Origin: Flavobacterium psychroterrae
Lineage (GTDB): Bacteria; Bacteroidota; Bacteroidia; Flavobacteriales; Flavobacteriaceae
DNA: 64,000 nt
Assembly: GCF_018380615.1 (NCBI RefSeq)
Contig: NZ_JAGYVZ010000005.1
Location: forward strand, 62,001 to 126,000
Direction of reading: 5' to 3'
Shown here piece by piece: positions 3,579 through 10,422 of the stretch. The position numbers and the translations under genes are program-made. The notes beneath the pieces were generated by a model. That model saw only the letters and a program-made list of their open reading frames with translations, did not search any database and was not told the origin of the DNA. Numbering within the stretch: the stretch's first letter is position 1; the number at the start of each line of letters is the position of its first letter.

Positions 3579-5549
<1,971 letters not shown>

Positions 5550-5872: not shown

Positions 5873-7489
5873 CTAAACTGTAACTCCGGCTTTTGAAATT
5901 TCAATCCCCGCTTTTACGTGAGCTGCATTTGCTCTTCCGCTTGGATCTTGATTTTCCTGCCATTTCGGGATCCATTTTCGTACTGTTTGTGCCGCACTCA
6001 CTTGTGGGTAAAATTTATGGAAAATAGATCTGTAAAAATAAGCTTCTTTTGTTGTTGGCGAATTGTATGGAAATTCGGCACTAGCTCCCGCTAATTTCTC
6101 ATCAGAAACCTGTGTTGCACAATATTCAATTAGTTCATCGATCCAATTGTATCCAACTCCATCTGAAAACTGTTCTTTTTGTCTCCATAAAATTTCAGTT
6201 GGCAAATACGGATTTTCTGGCGTATCAAATGCTTTTCTTAAAATATATTTTTCAATTCCATCATACGTTTTTGGCTGTTTTTCTTCTGTTCTGATTCTGA
6301 TGGAAACATCTAAAAAATCCTTATCTAAAAACGGAATTCTGACTTCTAATCCATGTGCCATTGTTGCTTTATCTGCGCGCAATAAATCGGCAGTAAACAA
6401 TTTCTGAACTCTTTCAATTGTCTCATCCTGAAATTCTTGAGCTGATGGTGCATTTCTAAAATACAAATGTCCTCCAAAAACCTCATCAGCACCTTCTCCT
6501 GAAAGGATAGCTTTAATTCCCTGATCTGCAATTTCTTTAGACAACAAATACAAAGGAACTGCGGCTCTTACCGATATAATATCGTAAGTCTCAATATGAT
6601 AAATTACTTTTTCTAAAATAGAAACACCTTCTTCAACAGTAAAATGAATTTCATGATGCTCCGTACCTAAAAACTCAGCTGCTTTTCTTGCCGCTATATT
6701 ATCAGGTGAATCTGCATCTAAACCAATAGAAAAAGAATGTAATTTTTCGCCTCTTTCGGCAAATAATCGGGAAGCAATTGAAGATAATAAAGACGAATCT
6801 AAACCTCCTGAAAGCAAAACCCCAATAGGCACTTCGCTCATTAAACGTTTACGGGTTGCTTCAATTAATGAATCGCGAACTAAATCAAGATCTAATAATT
6901 TATTAGCATTTGAATGATCTTCATATTCGGGATTATAATATTTTACAAAACCTGTTTTGCCTGTATAATAATGTCCGGGAGGAAAAGTTGAAAATGATTT
7001 ACACTGATCGGCAATTGATTTCATTTCCGAAGAAAAATAAATTCTGCCTCTTTCGTCTAATCCGTAATATAAAGGCTTAACCCCGACGGCATCTCTGGCC
7101 GCAATATAATTATCACCATCAATAATTACAAAAGCAAAATCGCCATCAAGCATATTACAAAACTTATATCCAAATTCTTCATACAAATGCACGATAACTT
7201 CAGAGTCTGATTTTGTTCTAAAAGTGTGATCTTTTAAAACCGTATCTTTTAATTCCTGATAGTTATAAATTTCTCCATCATGCACCATCCACGCTTTATC
7301 AGTTCCCTGAATAGGCTGTTTGCCCGATTTAAGATCGATAATCGACAAACTTTCATGACAAATAATACTGCCATTTTCCATAATATGCAAATCACTTTCA
7401 TCAGGACCACGATGCGACATTCTTGTAGAAAGCTCTTTTACGAGTTGCGGGTCTTTTCCTTTACCTATAACGGCTAATAATCCAGACAT
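5873..7489 (-). CDS. Asparagine-synthetase-like protein with degraded glutaminase site
   Basis: Two-domain class II glutamine amidotransferase / asparagine synthetase fold, 538 residues. The C-terminal ATP-pyrophosphatase domain looks functional: GVLLSGGLDSSLLSS at about residues 223-237 and LSGEGADEVFGG. The N-terminal glutaminase domain does not. The nucleophile Cys2 is Ser (MSGLLAV, codon TCT at 7484-7486), the glutamine-binding Arg in HERL is Ser47 (HESL), and the oxyanion Asn in NGEIYN is Asp71 (HDGEIYNY). The adjacent paralogue keeps all three. The inference is an enzyme that uses free ammonia, or one with a changed substrate or a regulatory role; the intact synthetase motifs argue against a decaying pseudogene. 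Frame and length are complete. The fold assignment is certain, the activity is not. Confidence 0.88.
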   Translation of the reverse strand: MSGLLAVIGKGKDPQLVKELSTRMSHRGPDESDLHIMENGSIICHESLSIIDLKSGKQPIQGTDKAWMVHDGEIYNYQELKDTVLKDHTFRTKSDSEVIVHLYEEFGYKFCNMLDGDFAFVIIDGDNYIAARDAVGVKPLYYGLDERGRIYFSSEMKSIADQCKSFSTFPPGHYYTGKTGFVKYYNPEYEDHSNANKLLDLDLVRDSLIEATRKRLMSEVPIGVLLSGGLDSSLLSSIASRLFAERGEKLHSFSIGLDADSPDNIAARKAAEFLGTEHHEIHFTVEEGVSILEKVIYHIETYDIISVRAAVPLYLLSKEIADQGIKAILSGEGADEVFGGHLYFRNAPSAQEFQDETIERVQKLFTADLLRADKATMAHGLEVRIPFLDKDFLDVSIRIRTEEKQPKTYDGIEKYILRKAFDTPENPYLPTEILWRQKEQFSDGVGYNWIDELIEYCATQVSDEKLAGASAEFPYNSPTTKEAYFYRSIFHKFYPQVSAAQTVRKWIPKWQENQDPSGRANAAHVKAGIEISKAGVTV

Positions 7490-7530
7490 ACTATTCTATA
7501 TTTTTTATTTATTTTATTTTTAGTCGCTAT

Positions 7531-7538
7531 CAAATCTA
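7531..7538 (-). promoter_or_regulatory. -7 box for the asparagine-synthetase paralogue
   Basis: The minus strand reads TAGATTTG, an exact TAnnTTTG match 42 bases before the start at 7489. Together with the terminator at 7737-7770 it suggests that the two asparagine-synthetase genes are transcribed separately. Confidence 0.45.
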
Positions 7539-7736
7539 GCAACCAAATAATGTATTATGATTTATAAATTTTCAGCTGAACTAAATATCATTTTCTGCTT
7601 TTCTGTAATAATACAATTACAATATTATGAATTTTATTTTATTTTCAGCTAATGCCAAATATAAAAAAGAAAGTCAAATAATTATCGGAAAATACAATTT
7701 AAGTAACTGAAATAATATAATTTAACAATATTAGAC

Positions 7737-7770
7737 AAGAAAAACGTCCTCAAAAATGAGAACGTCTTCA
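7737..7770 (-). terminator. Rho-independent terminator of asnB
   Basis: On the minus strand GACGUUCUC pairs with GAGGACGUU (two G-U pairs), with an AUUUUU loop and a following U tract. It lies about 35 bases past the asnB stop. The rest of the 315-base gap (7490-7804) is AT-rich and shows no gene. Confidence 0.75.
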
Positions 7771-7804
7771 GAAAATAATATATACTAATTCTAATAATTC
7801 TTGT

Positions 7805-9481
7805 TTATGCTTTCGCGTAAGCATCATCATGAACGCTTGCTACAGCTCTTCCTGAAGGATCATTCATGTTTTTGAAAGCTTCATCCCACTCCAATGCAAT
7901 TTTTGTACTACAAGCCACACTTGCTTCCTGAGGCACACATAATGCTGCGGCATCACTAGGAAAATGTTCTGCAAAGATGGAACGATAGTAATATTCTTCT
8001 TTAGAAGTTGGTGTTTGTAATGGAAATTTATATTTCGCATTTGCCAATTGCTCATCCGAAACTGCTTCGCCAACTACTTCCTTCAAAGTATCAATCCAGC
8101 TGTATCCTACTCCGTCTGAGAATTGTTCTTTTTGTCTCCATGCTACACTTGCCGGCAACATATCTTCAAAAGCTTTACGAACTACCCATTTTTCCATTGG
8201 ATGTTCCTCGTTGATCATCTTATCTTGTGGGTTGATGCGCATCGCAACATCCATAAATTCTTTGTCTAAAAACGGTACACGACCCTCAATTCCCCACGCC
8301 GCTAAACTTTTGTTGGCACGTAAACAATCGTACATGTGAAGTTTACCTAATTTACGAACGTTTTCTTCGTGAAATTCTCTTGCATTTGGCGCTTTATGAA
8401 AGTATAAATACCCTCCAAATAACTCATCTGCACCTTCACCAGACAGCACCATTTTAATTCCCATTGATTTGATAACTCTCGCCATTAACCACATTGGTGT
8501 TGAAGCTCTAACCGTAGTTACATCATACGTTTCAAGGTTGTAAATTACATCACGTACGGCATCTAAACCTTCCTGAATTGTGAATTTAATTTCATGGTGA
8601 ATTGTACCAATATGTTTTGCAACAATCTGAGCCGCTGCTAAATCTGGAGAACCTTCAAGTCCTACTGAAAAAGAGTGCAATTGCGGATACCAGGCATCTG
8701 TTGTATCATCAGATTCTATACGTTTTTGCGCATATTTTTTGGCTACAGCCGAAGTAATAGAAGAATCTAAACCTCCCGAAAGTAAAACTCCATAAGGAAC
8801 ATCACTCATTAATTGTCTATGAACCGCTGCTTCTAATGCTTTTTTGATTTCAGGAATACTTGTTTCGTTATCTTTTACAGCATCATAATCTGTCCAGTCT
8901 CTTTTGTACCATTGTACAAATTCACCATCTTTACTTGTCATATAATGTCCCGGAGGAAACAATTGGATTTTTGTACAATATCCTTCTAAAGCTTTCAATT
9001 CTGAAGCTACATAGAAAGTTCCGTCCTGATCCCAACCAATATAAAGTGGAATAATCCCCATGTGATCACGAGCGATAAAATACTCATCTTTCTCCACATC
9101 ATAAATTGCAAATCCGAAGATTCCGTTCATTTCATCCACAAAATGAGGGCCTTTTTCTTTATAAAGTGCTAAGATAACTTCGCAGTCACTTTCAGTTTGA
9201 AAGTTATATTTTCCTTCAAATTGTTTACGCAATTCTCTGTGGTTGTAAATTTCACCATTTGCAGCTAAAACTAATTTTTTATCTTCTGTAAATAAAGGTT
9301 GTTTTCCTGAAGCCGGATCTACAATCGCCAAACGCTCATGAGACATAATTGCTTTATCATTGCTGTAAATTCCGCTCCAGTCTGGCCCACGGTGACGAAT
9401 GATTTTAGACATTTCTAACACTTGAGGTCTTAATGTTTCAGCTTTTTGCTTTAGATCAAAGGCACATACGATTCCACACAT
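7805..9481 (-). CDS. asnB: Asparagine synthase B (glutamine-hydrolysing)
   Basis: Makes asparagine from aspartate, ATP and glutamine-derived ammonia in the cytoplasm. The 558 residues match the E. coli AsnB type. The glutaminase domain is intact: MCGIVCAF with catalytic Cys2, RHRGPDWSGI, SHERLAIVD with Arg50, ANGEIYNH with Asn75, and SDCEVILAL. The synthetase domain has GVLLSGGLDSSITSA and LSGEGADELFGGYLYF. The C-terminus carries DPSGRAVASVHDD, as in E. coli AsnB. It is the upstream member of a tandem pair; the downstream copy has lost the glutaminase residues. The two share about half their residues by eye, so the duplication is old. Confidence 0.96.
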   Translation of the reverse strand: MCGIVCAFDLKQKAETLRPQVLEMSKIIRHRGPDWSGIYSNDKAIMSHERLAIVDPASGKQPLFTEDKKLVLAANGEIYNHRELRKQFEGKYNFQTESDCEVILALYKEKGPHFVDEMNGIFGFAIYDVEKDEYFIARDHMGIIPLYIGWDQDGTFYVASELKALEGYCTKIQLFPPGHYMTSKDGEFVQWYKRDWTDYDAVKDNETSIPEIKKALEAAVHRQLMSDVPYGVLLSGGLDSSITSAVAKKYAQKRIESDDTTDAWYPQLHSFSVGLEGSPDLAAAQIVAKHIGTIHHEIKFTIQEGLDAVRDVIYNLETYDVTTVRASTPMWLMARVIKSMGIKMVLSGEGADELFGGYLYFHKAPNAREFHEENVRKLGKLHMYDCLRANKSLAAWGIEGRVPFLDKEFMDVAMRINPQDKMINEEHPMEKWVVRKAFEDMLPASVAWRQKEQFSDGVGYSWIDTLKEVVGEAVSDEQLANAKYKFPLQTPTSKEEYYYRSIFAEHFPSDAAALCVPQEASVACSTKIALEWDEAFKNMNDPSGRAVASVHDDAYAKA

Positions 9482-9972: not shown

Positions 9973-10422
9973 TCACAAAACACTCTCAATAGTATAATGT
10001 GTTTTATTTATCTCAAAAGCAAACCCAACTTTATTTCCCATTAAATGAGAACCAAGCGGAGATTGTGGCGAAAGCGCAATAACATTAATTCCGTCAATTG
10101 CAATTTTAGGAAGCGCTACACTCAAATACAAATGAATTCCGTTTGCTTTTACCAAACTTCCCGAAATAATATTTTCGGTGGTTTTTGAGGCGTCAATTTT
10201 GTCTAAAATAGCTTTTTGAGTTATAGCTTCTTTTAGTTTATTGGTTAGTTTTTCCTGTTCGATATGCATCATTGATAAAGCCGTTTCATGTTTATCTCCG
10301 GCGGAACCTTTGGCATCGTTTTTAGAATCTTCGGTCAAAGCCGAAATCATGTCTCTGAAAACATCTATTCGGTCCTGAACCATTTGTAGGTAATGTGAAT
10401 GTATTTTTTGTTTGAATTCCAT
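9973..10422 (-). CDS. Small protein with GreA/GreB C-terminal-like domain
   Basis: 149 residues. The first ~80 form a charged helical segment (MEFKQKIHSHYLQMVQDRID onward) likely to be coiled coil. The C-terminal ~60 contain SPQSPLGSHLMGNKVGFAFE, which resembles the SPLGxALLGKKVGD core of the GreA/GreB C-terminal domain. Members in Bacteroidota are often labelled 3-oxoacyl-ACP synthase in public annotation, which nothing in the sequence supports. It lacks the long N-terminal coiled coil with acidic tip of true GreA, so transcript-cleavage activity is doubtful; binding to RNA polymerase is possible (inference). It stands alone between palindromic repeats. Confidence 0.7.
   Translation of the reverse strand: MEFKQKIHSHYLQMVQDRIDVFRDMISALTEDSKNDAKGSAGDKHETALSMMHIEQEKLTNKLKEAITQKAILDKIDASKTTENIISGSLVKANGIHLYLSVALPKIAIDGINVIALSPQSPLGSHLMGNKVGFAFEINKTHYTIESVL

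Follow-up and report, generated by a model that had tools for sequence, protein, structure and literature searches.

The window, the whole 64,000-nucleotide stretch of Flavobacterium psychroterrae DNA analyzed here, contains two asparagine synthetase genes in tandem, asnB1 and asnB2. The product of the second, AsnB2, probably serves a different job from asparagine synthesis. It lacks the residues for glutamine hydrolysis, and two residues of its synthetase site are altered as well. We regard it as an evenly balanced proposition that AsnB2 has been freed from asparagine synthesis and acts as an AMP-forming ligase that does without glutamine and has a changed acceptor.

The gene asnB1 (positions 7805 to 9481, minus strand) encodes a canonical-looking glutamine-dependent asparagine synthetase of 558 amino acids. 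On the same strand, asnB2 (5873 to 7489; 538 amino acids) follows 315 base pairs (bp) downstream, head to tail. AsnB1 begins with MCGIV and has the glutaminase motifs HER50L and N75GEIYN; AsnB2 begins with MSGLLAVIG and reads HES47L and D71GEIYN. The Cys nucleophile is replaced by Ser (codon 2, 7484 to 7486), the glutamine-binding Arg (human Arg-48) by Ser (codon 47, 7349 to 7351), and the glutaminase-site Asn (human Asn-74) by Asp (codon 71, 7277 to 7279), all on the minus strand. Human residue numbers are counted from Cys1 and were mapped through an alignment of AsnB2 to human ASNS. An earlier note, made from the letters of this DNA, had named Ser2, Ser47 and Asp71 in AsnB2 and Cys2, Arg50 and Asn75 in AsnB1, and every residue is right. 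Its statement that the ATP-pyrophosphatase motifs are intact in both copies holds for SGGLDSS, which the two proteins share, but is incomplete: AsnB2 has Ile305 in place of Thr (human Thr-336; codon 305, 6575 to 6577, minus strand) and His341 in place of Tyr (human Tyr-373; codon 341, 6467 to 6469, minus strand). Both proteins pass the NCBIfam AsnB equivalog model (NF006949, cut-off 499), with scores of 684.8 for AsnB2 and 941.9 for AsnB1. AsnB2 also passes TIGR01536 (432.5 against a cut-off of 267.1). The nearest titled loci belong to Flavobacterium species, with up to 93% protein identity. An AlphaFold model, whose mean predicted local distance difference test score is 61, was set aside.

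A search of 150 Flavobacterium genomes, together with 80 loci of titled genomes, gave 164 AsnB2 reading frames. Removal of 19 duplicate sequences and two further copies of the window gene left 143 distinct AsnB2 rows, and 92 full-length distinct AsnB1 rows served for comparison. Residues 2, 47 and 71 are Ser/Ser/Asp in 78 of the AsnB2 rows, Ser/Gly/Asp in one, Gly/Arg/Asn in five and Cys/Arg/Asn in 59. In the Ser2-type rows, Ser2 (79/79, the codon always TCT) and Asp71 (79/79) are thus fixed and Ser47 nearly so (78/79, one Gly). AsnB1 has Cys/Arg/Asn in 92/92 rows. Such regularity rules out chance. Taken together, the replacements strongly imply that glutaminase activity has been lost in AsnB2. 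Other residues on the glutaminase side (Gly72, Glu73, Tyr75, Asp95 and Glu382) are retained in all 79 Ser2-type rows. H77Y and R81K were considered as further marks of the loss and dropped, as both occur in Cys2 rows (L162 in the genus; L178 and L180 in other genera).

The changes in the synthetase site are just as regular. Ile305 and His341 are present in all 84 Cys-less rows (79 Ser2 and 5 Gly2), and AsnB1 has Thr and Tyr at these positions in 92/92 rows. In human ASNS, T336I almost abolishes glutamine-dependent activity, according to the available part of PMC6748925. Next to these residues, position 309 is Ser in 57 and position 310 Gly in 62 of the 79 Ser2-type rows; the window AsnB2 has Ala at both. 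T311V was dropped as a diagnostic change, human ASNS carrying Val there. The 13 positions for ATP binding and adenylation are invariant in 79/79 Ser2-type rows (S227, G228, D231, D303, R308, S330, G331, E332, D335, E336, D368, R371 and K438; human equivalents among them are Asp334, Arg339, Ser362, Glu364, Asp367, Glu368, Asp400, Arg403 and Lys466). An Ala mutant of the bacterial residue R325, which corresponds to R308 of AsnB2, blocks the synthetase step (PMC6342913, in the part available). Because the adenylation residues are invariant, ATP binding and acyl-adenylate formation have most likely been retained.

The gene is kept intact by selection. All 79 Ser2-type rows are open frames of 534–539 codons. 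The ratio of nonsynonymous to synonymous substitution rates (dN/dS) was calculated from non-overlapping close pairs: 38 for the Ser2 group, 15 of those genome pairs for AsnB1, and 10 for Cys-type AsnB2. The values for the Ser2 group are 0.047 (0.036–0.057) in the N-domain and 0.066 (0.057–0.079) in the C-domain; AsnB1 has 0.026 and 0.022, and Cys-type AsnB2 has 0.040 and 0.035. Medians over all pairs (N/C) are 0.074/0.092 for Ser2, 0.044/0.026 for AsnB1 and 0.084/0.040 for the Cys type. The Gly2-type group is likewise low (0.067 and 0.046; 10 pairs). Intervals for the N/C ratio overlap between groups (0.54–0.91 for Ser2 against 0.77–1.80 and 0.69–2.25). Purifying selection acts on both domains of AsnB2. 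On these dN/dS values, the domain with the dead glutaminase site is not in decay and the synthetase domain is relatively freer, the latter with the caveat of the overlapping N/C intervals. A sequencing error or pseudogene is rejected: there are no frameshifts or stops in the 79 Ser2-type rows, and dN/dS is far below 1. The earlier note had proposed a changed role rather than decay, and the conserved altered residues, the open frames and the selection on both domains bear it out. It had also named a return of Cys2 in close strains as a sign of error or decay. No such return was seen in the 79 Ser2-type rows. There are orthologues with Cys, apparently the older state of AsnB2, and Cys2 is also present in L112 (F. 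ajazii), a member of the Gly2-type group.

A probable order of the residue changes is suggested by how the states are nested. Residues 2, 305 and 341 are Cys/Thr/Tyr in 54 of the 143 rows, Cys/Ile/Tyr in four (L120, L143, L158 and L165), Cys/Ile/His in one (L112), Gly/Ile/His in five and Ser/Ile/His in 79. None of the 84 Cys-less rows retains Thr305 or Tyr341. Orthologues from nine other Flavobacteriaceae genera all have Cys/Arg/Asn with Thr and Tyr (9/9). The best 143-row tree requires one change to His341, two at position 305 and three at position 2. The Ser and Gly types form one clade in the full tree with the trait columns included (85 rows; Shimodaira–Hasegawa-like approximate likelihood ratio support 99). 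A careful tree built from 58 selected rows without 11 trait codons also shows this clade (41 of the 58 rows, support 100/100). L143, L158 and L165 are sister to this clade in the full tree (support 93), and their placement is unsettled in the 58-row tree. The Gly2 rows and L112 group together inside the clade (100/100). The Gly2 rows retain Arg47, Asn71 and His77, and L112 keeps Cys2 but has a broken HRGPD motif. For these reasons two losses of Cys are the simplest account. On the simplest reading of the nested states, both losses came after the changes in the synthetase site. A single loss may also be envisaged, and would need a reversion to Cys2 in L112 and derivation of the Ser2 type from the Gly2 type. 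With the trait columns out, quick and careful trees alike neither support nor reject monophyly of the Ser2 rows (approximately unbiased (AU) test, p 0.341, 58 rows), and the best 58-row tree places the Gly group within the Ser group. That Ile305 preceded the loss of Cys is suggested by the four Cys/Ile/Tyr rows and the full tree.

The AsnB1 and AsnB2 trees disagree. In the former, a single clade of the genomes with Ser2-type AsnB2 is rejected (AU p 0.014, 53 rows). This disagreement suggests recombination or exchange between species at the asnB slot. In the window itself, AsnB1 groups with L091 and L105, and AsnB2 groups elsewhere.

The altered forms of AsnB2 are found together with AsnB1. AsnB1 status is known for 139 of the AsnB2 rows. 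On this basis, AsnB1 is also present for 81/81 Cys-less rows and for 86/86 rows with an altered residue 305, and the 42 AsnB2-only rows all keep Cys2, Thr305 and Tyr341. Of 54 genomes tested for AsnA, only G018, G020 and G058 carry it, and these three lack both AsnB1 and AsnB2; it is absent from all 42 tested genomes having AsnB1 and/or AsnB2. Because of this absence, Cys-type AsnB2, where it stands alone, is probably the asparagine synthetase of that species. Three AsnB2-only genomes were searched with TIGR01536, and in one of them (G009) there was no other match above the cut-off. It appears that AsnB2 is set free where AsnB1 takes over.

We propose the following course of events. The ancestor of AsnB2 would have been an ordinary glutamine-dependent asparagine synthetase, released from making asparagine in a branch of Flavobacterium that also carried AsnB1. 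The synthetase site would have changed first, from Thr to Ile at human position 336 and then from Tyr to His at 373, often with Ala340Ser and Ser341Gly, and these changes may have altered the acceptor or its geometry. The glutaminase site, now superfluous, would then have been lost, most simply twice: once by replacement of Cys, Arg and Asn with Ser, Ser and Asp, and once by replacement of Cys with Gly, accompanied by damage to the HRGPD region. The present AsnB2 would use ATP and a carboxylate to form an acyl-adenylate, which ammonia or an amine attacks without glutamine. The dead N-terminal nucleophile (Ntn) domain would be retained as a structural or ligand-binding part. As a speculation, an acidic pocket of Glu73, Asp95 and Glu382 with the gained Asp71 could attract ammonium in the Ser2 group; it would not be a general rule, because the Gly2 group is without Asp71. 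More tentatively, and with somewhat less confidence than we place in the proposal as a whole, AsnB2 may be an undescribed AMP-forming amino-acid ligase whose acceptor is not aspartate or whose nucleophile is not ammonia. It would be of stepwise origin, with intermediates living on in Flavobacterium species of today: forms with Cys and a changed synthetase site, and a form with Cys next to sisters of the Gly2 type. Among the roles that the earlier note had offered, the evidence favours action on another substrate.

Several observations weigh against this proposal. The C-domain dN/dS of the Ser2 group is about three times that of AsnB1. Ser232 of the pyrophosphatase loop (PP-loop), the 14th position tested, is Thr in 38 of the 79 Ser2-type rows. 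At sites conserved in both Cys-type AsnB2 and AsnB1, the Ser2 group has changed 18 of 130 C-domain positions and 6 of 60 N-domain positions. Each of these three results also fits a loss of catalysis. In the part of PMC6748925 that is available, the disease residues, including Thr-336, are seemingly not adjacent to aspartate or ATP, and Thr-336 is placed at the surface of the synthetase site. The available part of PMC11296641 gives Tyr-373 as an ATP contact on the basis of docking. In view of both points, the change of acceptor is something that we infer. Mutants of E. coli Thr-322 have also reportedly been studied. That His341 preceded the loss of Cys is suggested by L112, where Cys2 may perhaps be a reversion. 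AsnB1 presence changes just twice on the tree, so that its co-occurrence with the altered residues is a consistent pattern with too few independent events, and an independent-pairs test of the two had no power. AsnB2-only status was taken from a genome search at E 1e-60, and some of the AsnB2-only genomes are less than 90% complete, so that single cases may err. Two of the three AsnB2-only genomes checked with TIGR01536 (G001 and G073) carry further AsnB-like proteins. Finally, the neighbouring genes of asnB2 give no clue to a pathway.

We think it unlikely that AsnB2 is a pseudo-enzyme, a regulatory or structural partner that tunes AsnB1 through mixed dimers or filaments. The conserved dead N-domain and the relaxed constraint on the C-domain would suit such a partner. 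The genes are adjacent in Ser2-type loci with a long enough contig, except in one species (L025/L096), and yeast Asn1p and Asn2p co-assemble, one dependent on the other (PMC6342913, available part). However, 13 adenylation positions kept in 79/79 rows are unexpected for a mere scaffold. When the 71 AsnB1 rows from genomes with Cys-less AsnB2 are compared with the other 21, no fixed difference is found at the threshold that gives six in AsnB2, and in G099 the two genes lie on different contigs. The same comparison gives no support to the idea, raised in the earlier note, that AsnB2 takes ammonia from its partner.

Rather less credit is due to an ammonia-dependent asparagine synthetase, in which aspartate would still be amidated with free ammonium. 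Mutating the Cys of a class II enzyme is the classical way to an ammonia-dependent form, and AsnB2 keeps its adenylation and aspartate-cluster residues. This suggestion of the earlier note is weakened by Ile305, the equivalent of a human loss-of-activity change (T336I, measured in a glutamine-dependent assay) that most simply predates the loss of Cys. His341 in 84/84 Cys-less rows and the presence of an intact AsnB1 also speak against it.

Slow decay of a redundant copy is improbable. Where AsnB1 status is known, every row with lost residues also carries AsnB1, and the C-domain is relaxed relative to AsnB1, but the frames are open in 79/79 distinct rows, dN/dS is far below 1 in both domains, and the replacement residues at 2, 71, 305 and 341 are fixed. 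Least probable of all, and scarcely to be expected, is a new Ser-type Ntn hydrolase, an acylase or amidase that attacks some other substrate through Ser2: Ser is a known Ntn nucleophile, and Ser2, always TCT, is invariant along with Gly72, Glu73 and Asp95, but the oxyanion Asn is replaced by Asp and the Gly2-type group is under low dN/dS with no nucleophile at all.

AsnB1 and AsnB2 occupy one common chromosomal slot. The gene gyrB directly follows AsnB1 in 7 of 8 sampled AsnB1-only loci and AsnB2 in 32 of 42 AsnB2-only loci. In the window, asnB2 is followed by what we take to be gyrB (3579 to 5519, minus strand) and then mdh, names assigned by recognising the sequences and not through a database search. 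The left-hand neighbour of the slot (9973 to 10422, minus strand; 149 amino acids) has no Pfam match at E 0.001. Genomes with both copies usually have them as an asnB1–asnB2 tandem, some with an intervening gene of about 555 amino acids that is Amidohydro_3 where tested. A gene of about 555–573 amino acids stands between the two in the Cys2-keeping dual loci L116, L118, L119, L120, L122, L143 and L165; the one in L118 is Amidohydro_3 by Pfam, and look-alikes were seen by eye in L165 and several single-copy loci. Many Ser2-type loci have a gene of about 912 amino acids between asnB2 and gyrB (for example, L040:5838-8573), which is absent from the window; that of L040, the only one tested, is an M16 peptidase. 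A plasmid or phage origin of asnB2 was rejected, with no plasmid match at E 1e-150 and one relative in a viral collection. This relative lies near the end of an IMG/VR contig (L190, 40,435 bases) that could be host DNA, and is 61% identical to AsnB2 over residues 1–524.

The intergenic region (7490 to 7804, minus strand) contains a TAnnTTTG box at 7538–7531 and a degenerate dyad at about 7602–7572. In Ser2-type loci (for example, L013, L017 and L026) a conserved dyad of approximately AAAGCAAAA-(TTAATATTTA)-GTTTTGCTTT stands about 93 bp upstream of asnB2. It overlaps the TAnnTTTG box and is clearer in many Ser2-type relatives than in the window. Of the 77 Ser/Ser/Asp rows, 53 have the box 15–120 bp upstream, compared with 5 of 58 Cys-type AsnB2 rows and 4 of 93 AsnB1 rows; 374 of 3240 base shuffles hold it. 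Only 6 of the 77 Ser/Ser/Asp rows also have TTG at the -33 spacing. The dyad pattern (at most two mismatches) was found once each in 6 of 8 genomes, always upstream of asnB2, and asnB2 may have its own candidate operator. A regulon was dropped: there is no second site in any of the eight genomes, and the pattern read backwards, as a control, gives single matches in 4 of 8. A scan for sigma-70 promoters gave 21 where 17.1 were expected, and a scan for terminators gave 1 where 2.1 were expected. Two Rfam matches in the region scored 33.4 and 22.3, well short of their gathering scores of 90 and 72; they were taken as chance and an RNA element was rejected.

The AsnB2 family can be regarded as a natural experiment in the dismantling of a two-site amidotransferase, with the synthetase site apparently changing first and the glutaminase following. 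Loss of the glutaminase appears to have occurred repeatedly, and always in the presence of a second asparagine synthetase. The intermediates that survive in Flavobacterium make the order of events testable. A Thr-to-Ile change kept by selection at a human disease position also raises the role of this site when aspartate may be irrelevant. Among the open-licence papers listed by our literature searches, no title or abstract opening pointed to an AsnB paralogue of Flavobacterium or Bacteroidota that naturally lacks the Cys. An asnB of F. johnsoniae is listed in an expression table in the available part of PMC9239112, with the copy not specified.

Among known systems, AsnB2 is closest to the asparagine synthetases themselves. 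It matches E. coli AsnB (PDB ID: 1CT9) and human ASNS (PDB ID: 6GQ3) over nearly the full length (E 5.7e-141 and 1.2e-102) and shares their two-domain plan, PP-loop and adenylation residues. Unlike them, it is without the Cys nucleophile, the glutamine-binding Arg and the oxyanion Asn, and its synthetase domain carries changes of the T336I and Y373H type. The Cys2 orthologues are the same gene, 60–81% identical within the genus and 62–70% in the nine other-genus loci, and in Flavobacterium they are usually at the same chromosomal slot. They differ from the window AsnB2 in keeping Cys/Arg/Asn, and Thr305 with Tyr341 in 54 of 59 genus rows and in 9/9 other-genus loci. The beta-lactam and carbapenam synthetases are AsnB relatives without the glutaminase nucleophile, AMP-forming and located in antibiotic clusters. 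AsnB2, in contrast, sits in a housekeeping slot, and the beta-lactam (PDB ID: 1JGT) and carbapenam (PDB ID: 1Q15) enzymes were ruled out as closest kin by their weaker matches (E 5.4e-15 and 9.5e-17, compared with 5.7e-141 for AsnB). The AsnB/LtsA proteins of Gram-positives that amidate meso-diaminopimelate (mDAP) are AsnB paralogues shifted to another acceptor, as AsnB2 may be. The available part of PMC8554201 describes the mDAP-amidating AsnB as glutamine-hydrolyzing, without the aspartate-binding D and R and with an extra loop. For AsnB2, mDAP amidation seems the less favoured reading. The Asp and Arg residues checked (D303, D335, D368, R308 and R371) are kept in 79/79 rows. Relative to AsnB1 there is no large insert; those of at least three residues are a 4-residue one and, near the C terminus, two more of 7 and 4 residues. 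Yeast Asn1p and Asn2p are, like AsnB1 and AsnB2, two asparagine synthetase copies in one cell; unlike the case of AsnB2, no lost catalytic residue is reported for either copy in the available part of PMC6342913.

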